A stretch of DNA of 64,000 nucleotides from Paramarasmius palmivorus (lineage: Eukaryota; Basidiomycota; Agaricomycetes; Agaricales; Marasmiaceae). Under the pieces are notes generated by a model. That model ran no database searches and had not been told where the DNA came from. It saw nothing but the letters and a program-made list of their open reading frames with translations. The first letter of the stretch is position 1. Every line of letters begins with the position of its first letter. Of the stretch, positions 19,397-31,676 are shown in pieces. The stretch covers positions 124,001-188,000 of the forward strand of contig JAYKXP010000092.1 of assembly GCA_037176845.1 (NCBI GenBank). The letters are read 5' to 3'. A program made the translations under genes and the position numbers.

Positions 19397-19403
19397 CTGA
19401 AGT
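19397..19403. repeat. Left target-site duplication, CTGAAGT
   Basis: These seven bases immediately precede the left inverted repeat and are repeated exactly after the right one at 31670-31676. Confidence 0.88.
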
Positions 19404-19586
19404 CACCTAAGGTTCCCACCGTAATCAACAAATTAGTTGACGCGTCAGGGCCATCTAATCCAACAAAGTTGTGTTTTTGCCCGCGTTTTGTTCATCCGCG
19501 GGTAACATCCGCGGGCAGCTCTGACCTAAAAACCCTAAGTCTGCCTTTCCCGCGACGGCTCTATCTCTTTGAGCGCCTCTCCCTTC
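19404..19586 (+). repeat. Left terminal inverted repeat of the KDZ transposon
   Basis: The 183-bp repeat is nearly identical to the reverse complement of 31486-31669. It starts CACCTAAGG and ends around GCGCCTCTCCCTTC. An internal direct repeat CATCCGCGGG occurs twice, separated by TAA, at about 19493-19515, a candidate transposase-binding site. Confidence 0.93.
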
Positions 19587-19762
19587 AGAGCCTGTCAGTC
19601 CTTACCCTTCACTCTTCACTTCCAGTACTACCGTCCTTTGACCGTCCTGAGTTGACGGCTGCCTCAGTCTGAGCCTTGCCTATATTTTTATTTTTGTAAG
19701 ATTAATCAATGTAAATATCAGTATACATAGACCACAAACTACGTATTCAAGTAACTAGCAAT

Positions 19763-22107
19763 CTATTTACTCTTCATAATATTTCGACCAGTCTTAGAGG
19801 GAGGCTTGCGAGCTTTCTTGGGGGGAATCTTGGAATGCTCCGTGTCAGCAAACCTGGGAGCTGGGCCCTTACGACGAGGCGCGCGACGTTCGGCTACGGG
19901 TACATCAAGATCATCATTCTCTACCTCGCTCCTCACACGTTTCTTGCTCCGACCGACTTCATCCACGAGGACATCGCACCCTGCACCTTCAACGTCAACG
20001 TTATCTTGATCGCCTTCTCCAGATACTCCGAACCACGGCTCAGGATCGTCTTCGATGTCGGGATCAGGGTGACCAAAGGAGTTGGTATTGGAAAATAGGA
20101 CTGGGTCAATTGGAGGAGAAGGTCGAGCGTTGCAAGTGAAAGGGGAAGGGGATTCCAAAGGAAGAAGGGGAATCTCAGGCGAGGGGAGAAACAAGGGACT
20201 TTCGGCACGGCCTTGTACAGCACCGAAGCTGGTATTTGGATCGAAATCTCGAGCGTTGATTACCGTAGCCGCTGGCCCATCATTACCGAAATCCAGTGTT
20301 GGAACTACTTCTCCGAGATCGTCGTCGCTGAGGACTTCAAAACATGGGCGAGTGGGAGGATCATCGGAGAAGGGAGGCTCAGCACCTGGAGAACGTATTC
20401 TCACAAAGGGTATCGATGACGGCGTTGGGGAAGAAGGAGTAGGGGGAGAGACCGAGTCGAGAAGACCTGTTGGGGCAGTCAGGTCGTTTGCCTTGTCTGC
20501 CGACCCATCTTCCTCTTCGATGATGCGTTGAGACGGCTTCTTCGACTTGGATTTCTTCCTCTCCTTCTGACCTGAATCCTTCCCGTCCCCTTTCTTCCTC
20601 CCGCCTGTCTTCGGCTTCGACTTCGAACCAGAGTTCTTCGATTTCCGTTTCGACACTCCTACGACACCCTCATTGTCTGACTCTTCGAACTCGTCACCAC
20701 TTTCAGCACCCACTTCCTCAGACACATCCTGCGAGACAGGAGGAACACCACCAAAATCGACAACGACCTTGGATGTGTTCTGCTTTCTTGGACCCCGTTT
20801 CACGCCAGCGTCTGATCGCTCGTTTCTCTGGGGTACCGTTACTTCTCCATCGGATGCTCGTTTGGCGTAGTCGACCCGGAATGCTTCCCACTCCTCATCT
20901 GAAAGAAGTCGTAGTCGACATTGACCATTACTAATCAGCGACTGTAGATTCTGGAGGTCCCGAACTGAGCTCGATATCGCACTCAGGTTCTTGACCTCTT
21001 TGAACGGCCAGCCTTCGAGTACAATCCCCTGATCATATGTCATTAGTTTGTCGAAGTTCTCATAGTGTACTTTAACCTCTCTCCCCTCTTCCAACGTGCC
21101 TCGTTGACGTTTGCAATCTTCTGTCTGACTCCTCAGAGATTCCCGAATTGATGAACGGAGCGCTCGAACTTTCTGGTTTGCAGTTGTGGGAAGATCTGTT
21201 TGACAGAATTGAGTAAGTCATTCCCAGCTATAGATAAAAAACGAGCGCTCACTTGCAATTTCGCACTTAGCCACCGCAAACGCTTGCATCATCTGACCAA
21301 CACGCTCAAGATTGAAGCCACCCTTCGCCACAAGCGTCATGTAGTCGCTATACGCCCGATTCGTGATAAACCAATATGGTTCCATAAAAGGCTCGTGTCG
21401 ATTGCGAGTCACTAGAAGCATGGCCTCAACGCCGACCCGAAGGTTCATTGTTTTTATCTGGAGTCTGTGAGTATCGTAATGAGATAAATAACAAAATAAG
21501 CTCGCACCAGGCCTACGATGTTAGCCAAAAGGCTAGATGCCTCCTGAGTGAGCCCACGGCTTGCGATTTTCGGAACGGCAACTTCCTTTCGTCTGTCCTC
21601 CGAAAACTTCTCCACCAATTCAGCCTTCTTCTCCTTGGTAAACGTTCGATATTCTTCTTTGAGTTTCTGGCTGAGTTCTGAGGCAGAGAGCTTGGGTTCT
21701 CCCTCTACATGGCCATCAGTAGTATGAAAGGTAAGAAAATTGAGACCGTACGTACTTTTCCTATTGTCTTTTGCAACAAGTGACTTGAACGCATTGAACG
21801 CGTTCACCTGATTTCTAGGCCGGACCATTCGCACCCCTCCTTGATAAACGCGATCCTCCACATAGCGAACCTTTCGTTTGAAGTCGCTCGCAATTTGAAT
21901 GCACTGCGACCGGATGTAGCTAACTAGCCCTTCTATTGCAGAGTTCAGTTCACCCAATCTTTGCCTTTTTTCCTTCCGAATGCGCAGGCGTTCATCAGGA
22001 GCAAGAGGAGCACGTTTCTTCCTTGGGGCTTTGACTCTAGCTCGCTTCTGCTGTAGCGCCCTGGCGATTTTCCATTTTTTGGAGGCAAGTTTAGTGACGA
22101 GGACCAT
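19763..22107 (-). CDS. HMG-box-like protein with long basic, disordered C-terminus (transposon cargo)
   Basis: The start is the ATG at 22107 (MVLVTKLASKKWKIARALQQ) and the stop is at 19763; about four exons are joined by short introns, the last exon being 19763-21195. The N-terminal third is very basic. Then comes NQVNAFNAFKSLVAKDNRK spliced to SASELSQKLKEEYRTFTKEK and KAELVEKFSEDRR, which has the spacing of an HMG box (N-terminal strand, then a helix with KLKEEY...T.E.K). The C-terminal half has acidic and lysine-rich tracts, many PSPP stretches and a basic end (KKARKPPSKTGRNIMKSK). DNA binding, perhaps of the element's own ends or of cut DNA, is an inference from the HMG-like segment and charge. 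It reads toward the left end and lies 204 bp downstream of the next minus-strand gene. Confidence 0.72.
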
Positions 22108-22311
22108 GACCAGCGAGACAGGGAAAGGAAGGGATGAGACGAGCAACCGGGAGTATCCAAAGCCTGCGGCCGAACCTCCAAGTCAACGGAGATAGTTAAT
22201 TTTTTTGATCATGGTTTTTGCGCTATTCTAGATATTTCAGATCTGCTCAGATTGAGACATGTGGCCAACAATTTATTTTTCCAACCGATACAACAAACAC
22301 TTGCTAGACAT

Positions 22312-23623
22312 TTACATTTTCCTAAGCAATAGATAATACAACATCGTCAAAACTTCCCTGCCAAGTCTGGGTCTAACATCATACATTCTGCGAACGAAGT
22401 CAGAAAAACTATTCTCCGAGTCGTTAAAAGCCTGAACGGTCAGACGCGACCTCTCTGGCCCAAACTTATGAGTCTGAAGATACATTCTTGTCCAAGGACC
22501 CAAATCCAAGCCTCTGAAGGCTTCGTCCCATTCTGGTCCTATCAGGAAGTTGACGTCCGGCACATCGTCATCGTCCTCGTCCAAATCGTCACTGAGAATC
22601 GAGTCTAATACCCGTAGTTGACTTGGTCTCAGTCCCACAGTCACATCTTCAAGGTTCTCCCAGATATCATCTACAAAATGTATTTAATTAGTTGATCTAC
22701 GCATAAGTCTGGCAACTTGAAGTACTCACCGTCAGTGTTCCGAGAAGATGTGCCTCGTTGGGGAGTAGACTCTCGGCGCTGTGGAGGTGTAGCTACTACA
22801 ACGCGACGATGGGGTGTAGAGGGTGTCGTTTGCTGGCGTTGACTCGACGGAGATGGAGTCGGCTGAGTTGAGTGACTTGGAGTCACACTCGGAGTACGCG
22901 TAGTACGAGTTGCTGGTCTAGGAGTTTGGGGAGCCGGATCACGAGAATACGCGGGAGGTGCTGGGAGTGCTGCTAGTTCAGACGTTGACGGCGCTTGCAC
23001 AAAATCGTGTAGAGGAGCAGCGCCTTTCGTGAGCATGGCGAAAAACCCCCCAGCAAACGAAGTGTGACAAGTAACGTAGGCCATGACCACCCTAGTGTTC
23101 TCGATGTTCTCTTGAGCTCCATCGCTGTAGTGCTGATCAGACTTGAAATAAAGAATCAAAGAACACGTTTACTTGCCGACTGAAATACAAACTGATGCAC
23201 TTTCCCCTATGAAACGCATAAAACATCTCCGAATCTTCATCCATCTGGCGACAAATCGTCTCGAACGCTCGAGAGTCTTGAAAATATTGAATCAGTCGAG
23301 CTGGTTGGCGGTTCAGATGGACCGAGTTGTCGATCAGAGGCTGGAGTCTCTGCAGGATGTCCCGCGCCTTCTGACTCGAAGATACCTGGAAATTGACAGG
23401 CCAAGCGAGTGAGGTAGCACTATGACCCACTCGACCTGTCATAAAGACACTGCTCCACCGATCAGTTAGATCGACCAAAAACCAAAACACAGGACACTCA
23501 CGGCGTCCGATATATACCAGCTGCTACGTCCCTTTGATATCGCCCACCCGTAGACAGAAACCTTTCGCCCTGAGGAAAGCAGAAGATGAAAGAAGGCTCA
23601 TGAATGGGGGCTGGAGACTGCAT
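22312..23623 (-). CDS. Unknown Ser/Thr/Pro-rich protein (transposon cargo)
   Basis: I place the start at 23623 (MQSPAPIHEPSFIFCFPQGE), spliced through SVFMTGRVGHSATSLAWPVN and two more introns, with the stop at 22312. The N-terminal part is compact and globular-looking: LSTGGRYQRDVAAGIYRTP, then RLIQYFQDSRAFETICRQM. The middle is a low-complexity linker of T, P, S, Q and R. The C-terminal part has an acidic run (SDDLDEDDDDVPDVN) and a hydrophobic LGREVLTMLYYLLL end. I recognise no family. It is divergent from the dioxygenase gene, with about 400 bp between the two starts, so both may share a promoter. Its position inside the inverted repeats makes it a candidate partner of transposition or of the dioxygenase. 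Confidence 0.68.
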
Positions 23624-24021
23624 TGACGACTTGGATAGAGATATGGAATGGGAGCAGAAAGAATGTGGCGGCCCAGAGCCACCGATAAATCAAACAATCA
23701 TTGTGGGAACCTCTATCCAGAAAAGGATGCCATGTGTCACCAAGGCAACGTATGTTGAAATTCTTTTCCTCTGCTCCTTCTCATCCAAGTCTCAGCCGTT
23801 AGCCCGTCCGGTGCGTTTACACTCCATAGCACCCTTTCATCCACTTGAATACTCTTTTCAATGGGCTTATCGCACACTCTGTTGTACTCGAAGCCCGGGA
23901 ATAACGGAGTGGACGAACCAAACAAACAACTTTGAAATTCCCCTTCCTCCTTTGTCATTTGACACTTTTCATCTGATTTCTGTTTCTGGAAACACATACT
24001 GATAGCTCCGACAGTGTACGG
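23624..24021. promoter_or_regulatory. Shared divergent promoter inside the transposon
   Basis: This 398-bp region lies between the divergent starts of the unknown gene (-) and the TET/JBP gene (+). I identify no specific motif with confidence. Confidence 0.35.
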
Positions 24022-25504
24022 ATGGCATCGGCTGCAGATATTCAGCCGTTCACGCTCTCCGCGTCTATCGACCTTGAGCCACTCGTCCAGCTGGCGTTTA
24101 CAAACCAAGACGCTGTAGATCCAATATTTTCAGAATCTCCACTCAGCTCACCCCCACACTCTCCATTACCACCAAACTTCTCCGATTCCTCAACTTCTAC
24201 TCCTCTCCCCGGTCCGTCATCGATTGCCGAAACTACGCAAGCGCAAAGTCGATCAAAGCAGCGTAGCAAGGAGCTCCGGAAGCGAAAACGTGAGGCCGAG
24301 AAAGAAGACGCCACTGCTTACGAGCCGCCACCTCCAACCAAACGCCGACATATCGAACCAGGCATTGAACGTTGCCAGGTGGTGCAACTCGACGTCAGTC
24401 GATTTCGTGCATCTGGAAACGGCTTCACGGGCCACCACTCCCGCACCGGCTATCAGCCTGGAGAGTATACCTTGAGGGAGATGGTTGGCCCCAACTCGCG
24501 TTTCAAGTTCAATCTTCTTCAGTGGAATGGATCGTAAGTACTTTACCCTACGGAACTATGTGCCTCAAACTAATTCTTGTCAGGTTTACTCTACCAATCG
24601 TCGATCAGACGCGCCGAATATGGGTGATCTGCATCAGTAATCCCCGAGATAAGGAGTGGGGTGCCGTAACTACGAGGGCCGCCGACAAGCTGATGAAGCT
24701 ACGTTCCAGAGTCGCGTTTACAACTAAACAGAAGAGCGGAAGTCGAAGAGGTCAACTCTTCACTCTCAATACCGGTGTTGTCAATGGGCTGGGTCTCAAG
24801 GTTAGTGACATTTATTGGGGCACTACGTACTGAGCTTAACACTGCGTTAGGCTCCTATCACCAGAAAGCAGGCAAACAAGAAGAGTTCTGCTGTCGTCGA
24901 CGAGCTTCTTGCAGATGCTGATTTTCGCCGGATTGCTGGACACGGCTCAGGCGCGTTTCGGACGTGGCAGGAGAACATCTGGCAGAGCTACGCTCAGAAC
25001 AAGAAGGACTTACAGGCTCATGATGCCTCCCTGTGCTGGAACTATAACAACAGCATTTTTGCCGCCGCCGCGTTCAATTTTGGACCGCGAGTAGTTTCTC
25101 TTGATCATGTTGATTTTGAAAACCGCCCCGATGGGTTTTGTGCAGTCACCGCTCTTTGTCCGAGCGAGGGCGGGTACGACTACAAAACTGGCGGCCACCT
25201 TATCTTATGGGACCTACACCTAGTGGTCGAGTTTCCCCCAGGCACTACTATTCTTTTACCGTCGGCCATTCTTCGTCACTCTAATGTATCTATTGGTGCA
25301 AACGAGCATCGCATGTCCTTTGCGCAATACTCGTCGGGGCATCTGTTCCGGTTCGTTGAACGTGGGTTTAGAACGGAAGAGGATTTTTTTGCTTCTCTTA
25401 CACCGCGAGACAGAAAGTATGAAGAAGAGAGGGATGGTCGCCGATGGAAGGAGTCACTGAATAACTTTGCTACTTTAGATGATGTTTTGAATGATCGCAT
25501 GTAG
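24022..25504 (+). CDS. TET/JBP-family 2-oxoglutarate/Fe(II) dioxygenase (transposon cargo)
   Basis: The predicted activity is oxidation of 5-methylcytosine or thymine in DNA using 2-oxoglutarate, O2 and Fe(II). Exons are 24022-24533, 24584-24800 and 24851-25504; the last is a continuous 218-codon frame. The N-terminal region is low-complexity and basic (a KRKR-type nuclear signal around residue 100). In the catalytic exon I see the HxD iron motif in SLDHVDFENRPDG, the core strand GGHLILWDLHLVVEFPPGTT, the distal His in LPSAILRHSNVSI, and the Arg in NEHRMSFAQYSSGHLFRF that should bind 2-oxoglutarate. All iron and co-substrate ligands are therefore present. This arrangement matches the fungal TET/JBP group known to travel with KDZ transposons. 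Nuclear location and exact base substrate are inference. Confidence 0.9.
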
Positions 25505-26105
25505 ACATACACAGTCTTGTTGTACTCAATTACTTGGTCAATTGTACGTCCAATGTCCGAAATACTCATGAATCTAACTCAGCTAAGAAGGCAGGTTAAT
25601 GGATACTCTGTCAGCGGTGAGTTTCTCACTGTGTCTGGGTCTTTGAGTTCATCATCGTATGGACTCTATACAGAACGTTCGTTCTCGTTCAGGTTTATAT
25701 TCTTTCAAGTCTAAAGCATGCGGGAAGATGCTCCAGATTGATACTTTGGACAACATTGAACTAATTCATAATATTTGGATGCACCAGAGCTCAATGATTA
25801 TGGCTTGGTTTCAATGATACGGCCCAAAGTGAGGTTTGGTGGTGAGTTTCTCACCATTTTACATGTAGATCACTATTTGCACCTTTGGGTTTGAACCAAA
25901 TTTTTAGAAAAATGATATACATCATGTCAAGGCTTAGTCCATGCAGTTCGCGTACTTTCCTTGCAGTCTGGGGGTCATTGAACCGGACTATAGCAAAATC
26001 TATATGTGTGCGTTTATGCGCGCTAAAGTTCACGGAGCTATTTCCTTTTTTAAAATGAGTCGGATGATCGACAACCGGTTACTGCACTTCCTCTTTTCTG
26101 CCATC
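25505..26105. other. Spacer inside the transposon
   Basis: AT-rich spacer between two plus-strand cargo genes. An open frame from 25941 runs into the next gene and could be an N-terminal extension, but I prefer the ATG at 26106. Confidence 0.35.
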
Positions 26106-27005
26106 ATGCCTCAGAATTCGGAGCTGGAGCCCAACAACGAGAGTGGCCCCTTGGTCGATACCTCGTATATCTATCCTTCCTCTAGTCCTTTACCACCATC
26201 TAGTCCCTTACCACCATCTAGTCCTTTACCACCGTCTAGTCCTTTACCACCGTCTAGTCCGATGGACGAAACACGCGATAAATTCTCCGCTACACTTCTC
26301 AGACCAGTCCTTGTGGGCCGCCATCCAGAAGGACCCTTGACATCGACCTCATTAGACTTGAGCTCATGTCGTAAAGTTCCTGAAGGCGAAACGTGGTACG
26401 CTATTGGTGGGTAGCTTCTTTACCTCCTGCCCTATATGTTATCATTATTTTGTTTTAGATGATGAAGGCAACGAATACACGTTCGCGGAGTGGAATGCAA
26501 TGGAATCCAAGCGCATTCGCGAAGAAGATGAGGAGCGGCGCCGGGTTCGCCGAGCTATCCTTCTTGAACAACATTTTCAAACGGTGGCGCGTCGCGAGCG
26601 TGAAGCGAAGAAACGAGCACGAGAGGAGAGGCGTCGGAAGATGCTGGAAGAACAGGAGAGAATTAGGTTGGAGAAGGCTCGTCTGAAGGAACTGGAAAGG
26701 CAAAGAGCTAAGGCGAAACGAAGTTACAGGCGAAGAGCAGAACAGCTCCGAGAGAAGGCTCGTGAGCGTAAAGCACGGTGCGTGTCCTTTCCGTATTGAA
26801 AGCAGATTCAACTTACACTATAGTTTCTAGACTTCAAACTCAACTGAACTCATTACCAATAGGTGCTCAAGTCGAGCAGATAAACAACCGACGGGAAAAG
26901 CAGCGACAGTATTCTCGTCAGTACCGTGAGACTCACAGGGCAGAAGTGAATGCCAGGGAAAGGCAGCGGAAAGCTCGTATTCGTAGTTCATTATCCAGGG
27001 CATAG
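26106..27005 (+). CDS. Coiled-coil protein with PLPPSSP repeats (transposon cargo)
   Basis: Exons are 26106-26406, 26459-about 26779 and about 26830-27005. The N-terminal part holds about four and a half copies of a 7-residue-based PLPPSSP unit encoded by an 18-bp tandem DNA repeat. After the WYAIDDEGNEYTFAEWNAME segment, the protein is a long, highly charged helix (RIREEDEERRRVRRAILLEQ to KARERKAR), almost certainly a coiled coil or single alpha-helix, and the C-terminus is again Arg/Gln-rich (NARERQRKARIRSSLSRA). Such a basic helix could bind DNA or oligomerise; no domain is recognised. A start further upstream (25941 or about 26056) is possible. Confidence 0.6.
26181..26260 (+). repeat. 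18-bp tandem repeat, about 4.4 copies
   Basis: Unit TCTAGTCCTTTACCACCA with one or two changes per copy, lying in frame within the 26106-27005 gene and encoding the SSPLPP repeat. Confidence 0.9.
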
Positions 27006-27105
27006 TCGTATGAGAACTTGTGTTGATATTGTACCTATCACTCGTTGTATGAAACGAGCATTTGCAATGGATTCCTTTCGGTGTTAGTGTTATCTGGTCA
27101 TACCG

Positions 27106-27738
27106 ATGTATAGGAACATTTCCGGGGGCCGTGGACCATCAAAATGCGATCTACCTTGGCTGTTCCAGCATAGTGCGTTTTCCCATATTCTTGCGGCCAT
27201 GGGAGGCAAAATTAATCTGTACTACAAGGAGTATTCGAGATACGGTACGTAGTCTAGTCACTACTAACATACTTCAAGCTAATATGCACTGTCTTTAGTT
27301 CCAATCAAGCAAGAAGAGTCCGACACTGTGGACCTCTGTTCTGTACCAACCCTCGATGCGGACGATAGTCATTGTCAAGGAGCCGAGTTGGTCAGCATTG
27401 AGGAGATGCGACTCAAGGTACAGGAAGGACGGAGAATGCTAAAGAGGGGAGAGAAAATTGACGCGGAGACAACGGAGTTGATTCGAACATACGACGAAAA
27501 TGAACGAATCGATCAAGAGGCATGGGAGCGTTTCTGTCGTTGGTGGGAGGATCTACAGGCTCGAAGGGAAGCACGAAGGATTGAGCTGTTGGAATTTGAA
27601 GGTGGCGGAGGCAGTGGTGACGACCATGACGGTGGCGACGACCATGGTGACGATGGATCAAAGAAGTTGGACGGTTCAAGGACGGCTCATGAGGCTACTG
27701 CTGATAAATCAACCCACAATGTAGACGGTAGCGCGTAG
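27106..27738 (+). CDS. Small charged protein (transposon cargo)
   Basis: Exons 27106-27244 and 27299-27738 give about 190 residues in one frame. The first exon encodes MYRNISGGRGPSKCDLPWLF and HILAAMGGKINLYYKEYSRY; the second encodes VPIKQEESDTVDLCSVPT, a charged helix with ERIDQEAWERFCRWWEDLQA, and a Gly/Asp/His-rich tail. The VPIKQEESD stretch resembles a sumoylation consensus, but this is only a short match. I recognise no family. It ends 98 bp from the convergent stop of the transposase. The start ATG at 27106 is the one that keeps the first exon open and in phase; an additional upstream exon is possible. Confidence 0.55.
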
Positions 27739-27835
27739 TAAAAGTATTTCTTGAAACTCTTTCATTCAAGCTATTTCAATCATTACATTCTAACTTCGTA
27801 ATACAACTATTGAGTTTTACAGAAAAAAAAAACCA

Positions 27836-30800
27836 TTAATCTAGTCGTTCCCAAAAGGCTTGAAGCCCTTCAAGATCTTGTTCCGTGGCTTCATCCAACA
27901 AGTGAAGATCGACGTCCGCGTCGGAAGATACAAATTCCGGCGGTAGTACTTCGGGTACCTTGAGGGTCTCGGAGCCGCCATCTCGTGTTAGCCCCAAAAT
28001 GCTGACTGCCCAATCTGGCAAAGGCACTGAGTCTGTGAGAGCGGGATTGCGACCTACACGTTCCCCTGGAATGAGATCCAATTCCGGTAGCTGGGCTTGG
28101 TTCTCTAGACAATGATTGATATTCAATCAGAATAACAGTAGTACTTGTAGTATAGAAACTAACCTTTGAGTTGAAGTAACTGTGCAGTCTGAGCAAGCCG
28201 TGACGCAATTCGTCCGTGAATTTGTAGGCGATACTTATGCCGGCGTTGGAGCTCCGAAGCCAGTTCAAAATTAGTCGTTTGCAGTGCTTGAATTGCCAAG
28301 TGATAATCCGCGTGATCGTCCAACATGAATGTCACAAGGCGTTTCGCTTCAACGTGCAAGCGCTTGATCTCCTCATGTGCACGTAGTATGGAGAAATGCA
28401 GCCGCACCACTTCTCGTTTTTCCGGATCCGCCCAAGGTGTTTTGGAAAGGTCGAGATGCGTGTCTTTTAGCAGATCAAGTTCTGCAACTGTAACGAGGTG
28501 GATAATTTCCTCCCATGCCAATGTACGCTTCTTTGGACGCATCTGAAGTGCAACAGCGTTATATCGGGCTAAAGCCTTCTTAATGGCTTCGGATCGGGCG
28601 CGCAGGGCTTGAGTTATCTTGTCCCGCTGTTTGTATCCTAAATTTTTGATGAATGATAGAATTTGATCAATAAGGTTACCACATACCGATGCCATCCATG
28701 TCAAGTTTGGTTAACTCAAATAGTCGCGCAACAACAACCAGTTCAAGCTCTTCCAATGCATTCCGATACCGTCGCTCCACCTTGAGCTTCATTGCCTCCT
28801 GATACTCGCTTGAATCTCTTGTCCATCGTTCTCGAGGATTGGCATCCTCAAATCGAAGTAGAGCCTCTTGCGCGGTCTGGAACTTATCGTAATTGATGCG
28901 GTCGCGCGTTCGCGAGGCGGCTATCTGTTCTGCGGAATGGGCGGATCGATTCTTAGACATACTGAGGAAAGCCTCATGGGCTGTGTCGGCACTTTCTCTG
29001 ATGGAACATCAGAAATGGGCACTCCTAAGTTGGTACGTACTTACTTTGTTTTCCAGAACCGTTCCAAAAGCTCGGCATAGTCTATCTTTTCCGATATTTC
29101 GGGTGGCTCAGGGAAGTTACGGTTCTCGAAGTGCTCCCGTTCGCTAGCCAGAAGATCTTCGCAGGTAGCAGGGGTCATCTCAAATCTCTTGAGAGACTCA
29201 TGATATGTGTGCGTGTCCTCCAAGAGGCGCTGTACGACTCGCCGATACGTTTGATAAATGAAATTTCCTTGTCAAGTGTAAATTCAAATGCCTGCCTGAG
29301 ATTAAGCTACTCACCTGATAGGGCATGTTTATCGTCATCATTGAAATGAAAATGTTGCAAAAGGAGCTGTCGTCGATGAAAATAGGTCGCTAGCCGAGTC
29401 AAGGATGCCAGCCAGTTAGAACGTGAGAAGAATCGTTCACATTCCTCGAAGTCTTCAATGCCAACGCCCAACCGGTATTGGGGATGCCAGCATAACTGAC
29501 ACTTTCTGTTGTGAGCATGTCCGTGGAAGGCCGGGACTACTCCAGTGAGGCGTGTGTGTTTGACCTTACTTCCAAGACGACTGCGGGTTAATGTCTTGAA
29601 AAACGCACACATGATATCATATGCAACGCAAAGATCTAAGCCGAAGTCGTCCATCAAACGATTGACAATCGCCAGGGGATACTTCATCCTATCGTAGAGA
29701 TGAAAAAAAAAGTCTGAACGGTAAAACAATCACTCACAGTTCCCCACTCCGTCGCATATCGCACATGGCCAAGAGGTGTCCATGACGACAAACCGCCAGA
29801 AATACCCCGGAGATGGCAAAGAAAGCGAACATCTTCTTGCGCGACTCGGGGCCTGCATTTTTCCATCGGTCTACACAGGTGTCAACGCAAGCTGTAAGGT
29901 CCTCAGTTTCGTTGACGTTGAGCCACGGGATATCCTCATCCTTTGCAGCCTGAAGGTCAGGATATACGGCGTCGGCAGTTTGGACCACCCCATTGGACGA
30001 TTGGGCTTTCTTTCCTCGCTGGGTGTTATTGTTGAGATGTTATTTTTGAAACATCCACATGGTACGTACCTTATTCTGGGAGTTGGCAACTTCATCTTGA
30101 AATTGATCAACTTCTTCGGCCTCGACCCACCGATAATCGGGTAGCTGGCGTGAATCCTCTCGAGTGTTGCCGTACTTGAACGATTCATCTACCATCTTCA
30201 GCGAATTGTTGCCGTCTATCGCCATGAGCATAGAAGGAACTAGCCGTGGCTCATCCTTCAATGCATATCGACACGGGGGGCATACTGTATCAAAGAACGC
30301 TTGCCGTGACTGTCGGCCGAGGGCCTTGGTACATTCCGAATCAACTTCCCGAATGATCATAAGGTATGTGTCGTAAGCCGCTCGGAGTTGATTTTCAAGG
30401 TGCGAATCACGCGGTATCTGTTGGCTGTGTAAAACGCACTGTTGAATTCTTATGTTCGTGATCCTACCTGGTGTATGTGCTGTAGGGCTTTCGAGAGCGC
30501 GTCGATACTCAGTTTATTACAAACTCGATGCAATTGCCTATATATTTCGAACAGGGAAATAGGGAATCCCATCGACACATGCTCAGGACTGGCTCCTATG
30601 ATACCATGGCGGACAAGACTTTCATTGGTGCTAAAGACATCACTGGAGACCTGGAACAGGGTTCGATTGCCGTTGACTAGTGACAAGGTTTAGTGATGAA
30701 CTTATGGAAATATCGTTTCGACCTACAATTGAAATCCATGATGTGTAACTCCCATTCCGGCTGCGAGGTTGTGTTTTCAGGTGGGCCATGAGCCTTGAAA

Positions 30801-31401
30801 GCCAGATACGCCTTTGCGAGATGTGGAAGTTGTTCTTGCCAAGATTTCGTCTGCTTCTCTATCCGGTCGCTTCGGGTACGGGAGTCGGAGAGTCTGGAAC
30901 GTGTTTAGATATCAGACTGGAGTTGCGAAAGAGGCGACGTACCGGGTAAATTTGTCGCTGAATGATCTCAAGAAGTTATGATACCCGTACTCGCCGCCCT
31001 CATGACTCATCGTTACTGCCTCTTCTCCAGGTGGAAACGTCGGGGGTGGTTGCGATTGGTTCGGCATATCCACCCATTCTTCATCGTCCTCGGCCTGAGC
31101 GTTGTAGATAGGTATTGAACCGTTGTCGTCCGAGTCAGAGAAATCAGCCGGTGCATTGTCGACGCCATTACTTTCGGTGGGGTGCGGATCGATATCGTCT
31201 CTCTGTTGGAATGATAAAGCTGTGGTTCTCTGTCAGAAATATGTATTCCAGGCTCGGCGAGGACTTACTATTGAAAAGAGCTTGATGTCGAGAGCGATCT
31301 GATATGTACCGTTCCTCGTATTTGTCAATGCCTGCACGCCGTATGGTATCCGATCCATCTACACCACCATAGTGTATTGTCATGCGCTTTCGTTTGCCCA
31401 T
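27836..31401 (-). CDS. KDZ-superfamily transposase
   Basis: This multi-exon gene starts at 31401 (MGKRKRMTIHYGGVDGSDTI) and stops at 27836. It has the hallmarks of Kyakuja-Dileera-Zisupton transposases of mushrooms. The N-terminal cysteine-cluster region contains SLVRHGIIGASPEHVSMGFP. The first catalytic Asp is expected in SMLMAIDGNNSLKMVD, preceded by FFDTVCPPCRYALKDEPRLV. AISGVFLAVCRHGHLLAMCD is followed by the second Asp in VAYDIMCAFFKTL. The Cys/His set is VVPAFHGHAHNRKCQLCW, and the Glu is in GVGIEDFEECERFFSRSNWL. C-terminal helices end in a short acidic tail. I saw no frame break in these conserved blocks, so an active enzyme is plausible. It occupies the right part of the element and reads inward from the right repeat. 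Confidence 0.92.
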
Positions 31402-31485
31402 CTACTTTATGACAGGTGCAGGGGATGTGATGAGTACGAAAAAAAGGGAGATTGGCTGACATAAACAGAGTCGTCGTACCAATAG

Positions 31486-31669
31486 GAAGGGAGAGGCGCC
31501 CAAAAAAAATAGAGCCGTCGCGGGGAAGGCAGACTTAGGGTTTTTAGGTCAGAGCTGCCCGCGGATGTTACCCGCGGATGAACAAAACGCGGGCAAAAAC
31601 ACAACTTTGTTGGATTAGATGGCCCTGACGCGTCAACTAATTTGTTGATTACGGTGGGAACCTTAGGTG
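31486..31669 (-). repeat. Right terminal inverted repeat of the KDZ transposon
   Basis: This is the reverse complement of the left repeat with few changes: one substitution near the CCTTCCCCGCG segment, then divergence around a T-rich run. It also carries the doubled CATCCGCGGG motif. Confidence 0.93.
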
Positions 31670-31676
31670 CTGAAGT
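31670..31676. repeat. Right target-site duplication, CTGAAGT
   Basis: Exact copy of 19397-19403, directly adjacent to the right inverted repeat. Confidence 0.88.

Follow-up and report, generated by a model that had tools for sequence, protein, structure and literature searches.

The window analyzed here (the whole 64,000-nucleotide (nt) stretch of DNA, C92:124001-188000 of the 68.3-Mb Paramarasmius palmivorus assembly) contains at positions 19404-31669 a 12,266-bp DNA transposon, which, judging from its sequence, is most likely an autonomous KDZ transposon belonging to Kyakuja, and which carries six predicted genes (G1 to G6), among them a transposase (G6) and a TET/JBP dioxygenase (G3; Table 1). 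Its terminal inverted repeats (TIRs) are 97.3% identical, with 4 mismatches and 1 gap across 184 columns, its ends read CACCT..AGGTG (CA..TG type), and it is flanked by an exact 7-bp target site duplication (TSD). For the gene models, an intron was retained only if donor, acceptor, and frame agreed in both six-gene copies of the assembly (the window element and the C3 copy described below). All six genes are open in the window: their GT/GC..AG introns are conserved, and none is interrupted by a premature stop. The preliminary description had proposed a whole, precisely bounded KDZ element with TIRs and intact genes, and we consider this anatomy settled.

Table 1. Features of the transposon in the window (positions are those of the window; exons are listed in the order of transcription; aa, amino acids)
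Feature	Position	Strand	Details
Left TSD, CTGAAGT	19397-19403		exact repeat at 31670-31676
Left TIR	19404-19586	+	starts CACCTAAGGTTCCC; 183 nt vs. 184 nt in the right TIR, 97.3%
Putative CpG-rich protein binding site, tandem ATCCGCGGG-4 nt-ATCCGCGGG	19494-19515	+	TIR positions 91 and 104
G1, HMG-box-like protein, 745 aa	19763-22107	-	exons 22107-21508, 21457-21253, 21195-19763
G2, protein without assigned function, 372 aa	22312-23623	-	exons 23623-23502, 23419-23177, 23124-22730, 22670-22312
G3, TET/JBP dioxygenase, 460 aa	24022-25504	+	exons 24022-24533, 24584-24800, 24851-25504
G4, coiled-coil/basic protein, 264 aa	26106-27005	+	exons 26106-26406, 26459-26777, 26831-27005
G5, small acidic protein, 161 aa	27199-27738	+	exons 27199-27244, 27299-27738
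G6, KDZ transposase, 1021 aa	27836-31401	-	11 exons; motifs DGNNS, YDIMCAF, GVGIEDFEECER
Right TIR	31486-31669	-	184 nt; pairs with the left TIR
Right TSD, CTGAAGT	31670-31676		identical to the left TSD

The product of G6 matches PF18758 with an E-value of 4.8e-72 and 242.6 bits (cut-off 26.6) over profile positions 2-217 of 217, and its spliced frame, which the preliminary description had marked for a check of stop codons, holds neither a stop nor a frameshift. The acidic D/D/E motifs, whose residues we take to be catalytic, are intact, and matching motifs were found in all five other large elements of the genome. The preliminary description had also proposed a search for other copies of the TIR; in the same assembly this search returned 22 matches, both ends of the window element counted, and the terminal 14-mer CACCTWWGKTTCCC occurs 74 times in the genome vs. 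6 times for a reversed control pattern. By eye, 56 of the 74 occurrences were arranged into 28 inward-facing pairs (6 longer than 10 kb, 20 of 2.6–5.6 kb, and 2 shorter than 300 bp). For 16 of these pairs, both ends were inspected, the TSDs of C3, C147, and C36 being read by eye, and 15 of the 16 copies carry an exact 7-bp TSD, each with a different heptamer, the exception being C78. The window itself gave no Rfam match at the gathering score, and no relative turned up among the viral contigs searched.

The six large copies have TIRs of 129–377 nt. The second six-gene copy (C3:1077702-1089994, 12,293 bp) is 75.5% identical to the window element across 12,075 aligned positions, and four further large TIR-bounded relatives lie on C147 (12.7 kb), C78 (13.2 kb), C36 (15.8 kb), and C16 (10.7 kb). 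The TET gene of the C147 copy is oriented opposite to that of the window element relative to its neighbors. The C16 sibling (C16:274309-285027, L050/L051) has TIRs of 98.9% identity, the exact TSD ACGTGTC, and the gene order KDZ, G2-like, G1-like colinear with the window, while TET was detected in it neither by search nor by motif; the gene at the place of G4 resembles G4 by eye alone, as phmmer gave no match.

According to the text of Kojima 2025 (PMC12730594), TET-bearing Kyakuja elements of Agaricomycetes have 7-bp TSDs and CA..TG ends, and its two Laccaria families, Kyakuja-1_LB and Kyakuja-2_LB, share with the window element a KDZ transposase, an inner TET/JBP gene, both of these terminal features, and an Agaricomycetes host. 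The 7-bp TSD, which the preliminary description had thought worth recording for this superfamily, is therefore not new. The two Laccaria families are said there to lack TIRs, so that the large Paramarasmius copies differ in this respect from those two families, though not necessarily from Kyakuja as a whole. Zisupton and Dileera are likewise KDZ lineages, but are given 8-bp TSDs in the same source. TET-bearing KDZ elements are thus already in print in that text, and what distinguishes the present family is its long TIRs, the conserved partner set of the HMG-like G1 and G2, and the TET-less sibling C16. The terms HMG, Marasmi-, and Moniliophthora do not occur in the main text of PMC12730594, and the available text of PMC8889193, on oxidized methylcytosine in Laccaria and Coprinopsis, does not mention KDZ, Kyakuja, or HMG. 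Our literature search found no work joining at least three of the terms KDZ, HMG domain, TET JBP, and transposon.

G3 has a TET/JBP-type double-stranded beta-helix fold, and the iron and 2-oxoglutarate ligands named in the preliminary description were borne out by conservation: H86, D88, and H143 of the HxD...H motif are invariant in 30 of 30 relatives, and R154, which would be the 2-oxoglutarate-binding arginine, is kept in at least 90% of them. Pfam Tet_JBP does not match G3 itself (0 families) but matches 6 of the 30 aligned relatives, with a best E-value of 1.1e-06. The fold of G3 can be aligned with that of CcTet of Coprinopsis cinerea (PDB 7VPN, 7W5P, 8JKK) at 12–14% identity. Sequence searches with G3, two relatives, and the 30-sequence profile retrieved no TET structure, the threshold for G3 and the profile being E ≤ 1. 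By ungapped spacing from the HxD motif, and not by residue-level alignment, the positions of CcTet 331 and 337 are occupied in G3 by Asn91 and Cys97, both invariant in the 30 relatives, whereas Kyakuja TETs are described in the text of PMC12730594 as having Gly or Ser together with Asp. The active site of G3 thus possibly differs from the Kyakuja description.

G1 resembles HMG boxes by a fold match, and Pfam HMG_box is found below the cut-off in its close homologues. The name KDZ and the association of TET/JBP with KDZ reportedly go back to Iyer et al. 2014 (PNAS), whose abstract is said to mention a divergent HMG domain among the additional proteins. For the G2 protein, the sole match in the search was the C3 copy of the same host, and the public host annotation (P0121) merges part of G2 with G1. 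Between the window and C3 copies, the ratio of nonsynonymous to synonymous divergence (dN/dS, Nei-Gojobori) is 0.116 for G1, 0.175 for G2, 0.071 for G3, 0.114 for G4, 0.291 for G5, and 0.066 for G6, at dS values of 0.85–1.43, which are therefore near saturation. By this comparison of the two six-gene copies, purifying selection acts on all of the genes, which argues that the TET is a working part of the element and that G1 and G2 are conserved partners and not chance cargo. Among the five other large elements (tblastn, E ≤ 0.01), G1 and KDZ are present in all five, TET in four, and G2 in four, with a weak G2 match in C36 (phmmer, E 0.0067). G4 and G5 are clear solely in C3, G4 being weak in C36 and C78; outside the large elements, matches were obtained for G4 in C167 (E 2.3e-08) and for G5 in C23 (E 3.1e-06), each close to a KDZ gene. 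Of the "four further cargo proteins" in the preliminary description, all four genes are present, but for G1 and G2 at least the term cargo does not hold. Genome-wide there are 123 TET matches, some of which represent two pieces of one gene. After the 25 weakest were dropped (E 9.3e-10 and above, second pieces of one gene included), 98 TET loci were compared with 144 of the 178 KDZ matches; 58 of them had a KDZ match within 8 kb among the matches listed, vs. 3.3 expected under an even spread.

Cytosine methyltransferase domains were found above the cut-off at four places in the genome. Decay at CpG was polarized in six short copies of mostly noncoding sequence, taken as two trios, leaving out C308, C370, C12, and C25, which lacked two close partners. 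CpG-to-TpG/CpA changes vs. other C-to-T changes numbered 13/256 vs. 4/995 in C9, 21/248 vs. 19/987 in C77, 5/242 vs. 7/933 in C239, 16/260 vs. 3/1018 in C13, 8/257 vs. 5/1006 in C17, and 35/260 vs. 3/1015 in C116, where decay was strongest. Because the excess at CpG is at least 2.8-fold in all six copies, methylation probably acts on the family of the window element. The flanks of C116 (L018) have a CpG observed/expected ratio (o/e) of 0.394, the lowest among those computed.

Kojima 2025 (PMC12730594) proposes an escape from methylation for TET-bearing Kyakuja, the function of transposon-borne TET being described in its text as without experimental validation. We consider it fairly probable that the window holds an autonomous KDZ element of the cut-and-paste type, in which G1 and G2 help G6 while the TET counters host methylation of the element. 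Following what is known of the family, G6 would bind the TIRs, probably aided by the HMG-like G1 and G2, and would insert the element in a cut-and-paste manner that generates the 7-bp duplication; it may also mobilize short TIR-bearing copies in trans. G3 would oxidize 5-methylcytosine (5mC) placed on the element by the host, and this oxidation would keep the promoters and CpG-rich subterminal sites usable. Catalysis by G3 and G6 and the roles of the proteins at the ends are thus predicted, and anti-silencing appears to be the best reading of the benefit of the TET.

A narrower version, to which we give a rather low probability, is that the tandem ATCCGCGGG-4-ATCCGCGGG sites are bound by the transposase or the HMG protein, blocked by methylation, erased by CpG-to-TpG decay, and kept readable by the TET; if so, the TET would be a license for transposition besides expression, short copies in trans included. 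The motif stands at positions 91 and 104 of either TIR in the window element, C3, C9, C77, C239, and C17, is slightly shifted in C308, has an altered second half in C147 and C370, and is damaged at its CpGs in one TIR of C13 and in both of C116.

Several results weigh against the interpretation favored here. The tandem motif is absent from the TIRs of C78, C36, C16, C12, and C25. Noncoding CpG o/e is 0.811 in the window element vs. 0.843 pooled in eight short copies, and the value of 1.008 for the whole element owes its excess to coding sequence (1.045). The suggestion in the preliminary description that such elements might alter methylation around themselves thus found no backing in composition: the short copies are CpG-decayed, yet the noncoding CpG of the TET-bearing element gives no sign of protection. 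In C3, the TET is the single visibly broken gene, and since its one premature stop is of the CpG-transition type, this copy was not spared. C16, with its exact TSD and its TIRs of 98.9% identity, moved although no TET of its own was detected, so mobility does not strictly require the TET, barring a supply in trans. Finally, the empty site TACTACCTGAAGTAGAGATC, proposed as a check in the preliminary description, was not recovered, as a search of this one assembly with the joined flanks hit nothing but the two flanks of the element.

Together with the missing duplication of C78 (1 of 16), this lack of an empty site could favor a chance or assembly origin of the inverted repeats and heptamer, a notion whose probability is negligible because of the 22 TIR matches, the excess of termini over the control, and the different exact heptamers of the 15 copies. 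The TET could also be a captured passenger that is useless to the transposon, and its absence from C16, inversion in C147, and breakage in C3 would fit this; nevertheless, we hold it to be very unlikely, given purifying selection as strong as that on the transposase between copies at a dS near 1, and the proximity of TET loci to KDZ matches. Somewhat less improbable, though still unlikely, is that G3 acts on a base other than 5mC, either 6-methyladenine (6mA) or a further modification. CcTet oxidizes both 5mC and 6mA, and its Gly331 is tied to the accommodation of 6mA in the text of PMC11040006; the low identity of G3 to CcTet leaves room for such a change, but by the same ungapped spacing N91 of G3 lies three residues after HxD, like N1387 of human TET2, at the position where CcTet has Gly331.

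The alternative to which we assign the most weight, while still considering it improbable, is that the TET acts in trans without target preference, so that many copies would oxidize methylcytosine genome-wide and 5-hydroxymethylcytosine and its relatives would become a chromatin mark, with an indirect benefit for the element. The large number of TET matches and the mobility of the TET-less C16 are in line with this, and the text of Kojima 2025 (PMC12730594), citing others, reports oxidized methylcytosine also on retrotransposons in Coprinopsis and Laccaria and speculates on an action that is not target-specific. However, the low dN/dS of the TET is easier to explain by a benefit from the element's own copy, as a pure public good would vanish from single elements. 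The broader question is whether a TET enzyme carried by a transposon releases transposons from DNA methylation. A single assembly offers the intact six-gene TET-bearing element, the broken-TET copy C3, C16 as a sibling lacking a detected TET, and numerous short copies, of which six showed CpG decay, and therefore methylation and oxidized methylcytosine can be compared between siblings that have exact boundaries; with relatives with and without TET in one family, the purpose of the TET becomes testable.

Some comparisons of CpG content were set aside. CpG composition was dropped as evidence of TET protection on account of the noncoding values given above. The window/C3 CpG ratio of 1.12 comes from a pair too diverged to tell, the diverged short pair C9/C13 giving 1.3. 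The close pair C78/C262 (11/932 changes at CpG vs. 13/3209 at other C/G) consists mostly of transposase sequence, and C262 has no TET in the stretch examined. Transitions at CpG in the TIRs (1/18 in five large copies vs. 22/77 in nine short ones) did not differ significantly (Fisher p 0.063), and this comparison was badly grouped, as C36 (4/11) and C308 were missing from it and the TET-less C16 stood among the TET-bearing copies.

Within the window genes, the G2 intron at 23125-23176 is apparently of the GC-AG type and is conserved in both six-gene copies, and G4 contains an 18-bp tandem repeat (26181-26260, 4.4 copies) that encodes proline/serine repeats. Elsewhere in the genome, C12 (L048) and C25 (L049), two elements of 2.8 kb, have CACCTTTGG termini, 7-bp TSDs, and a common gene peculiar to them that contains the motif NKD(T/S)INAKRRESRQ, and nine pairs of such termini are spaced 2.78–2.85 kb apart. 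Within the TET gene of a related element, a 3-kb stretch (C31:315483-318486, L040/L041) matches its reverse complement at about 98% identity, which might reflect either a nested fold-back element or an effect of the assembly.
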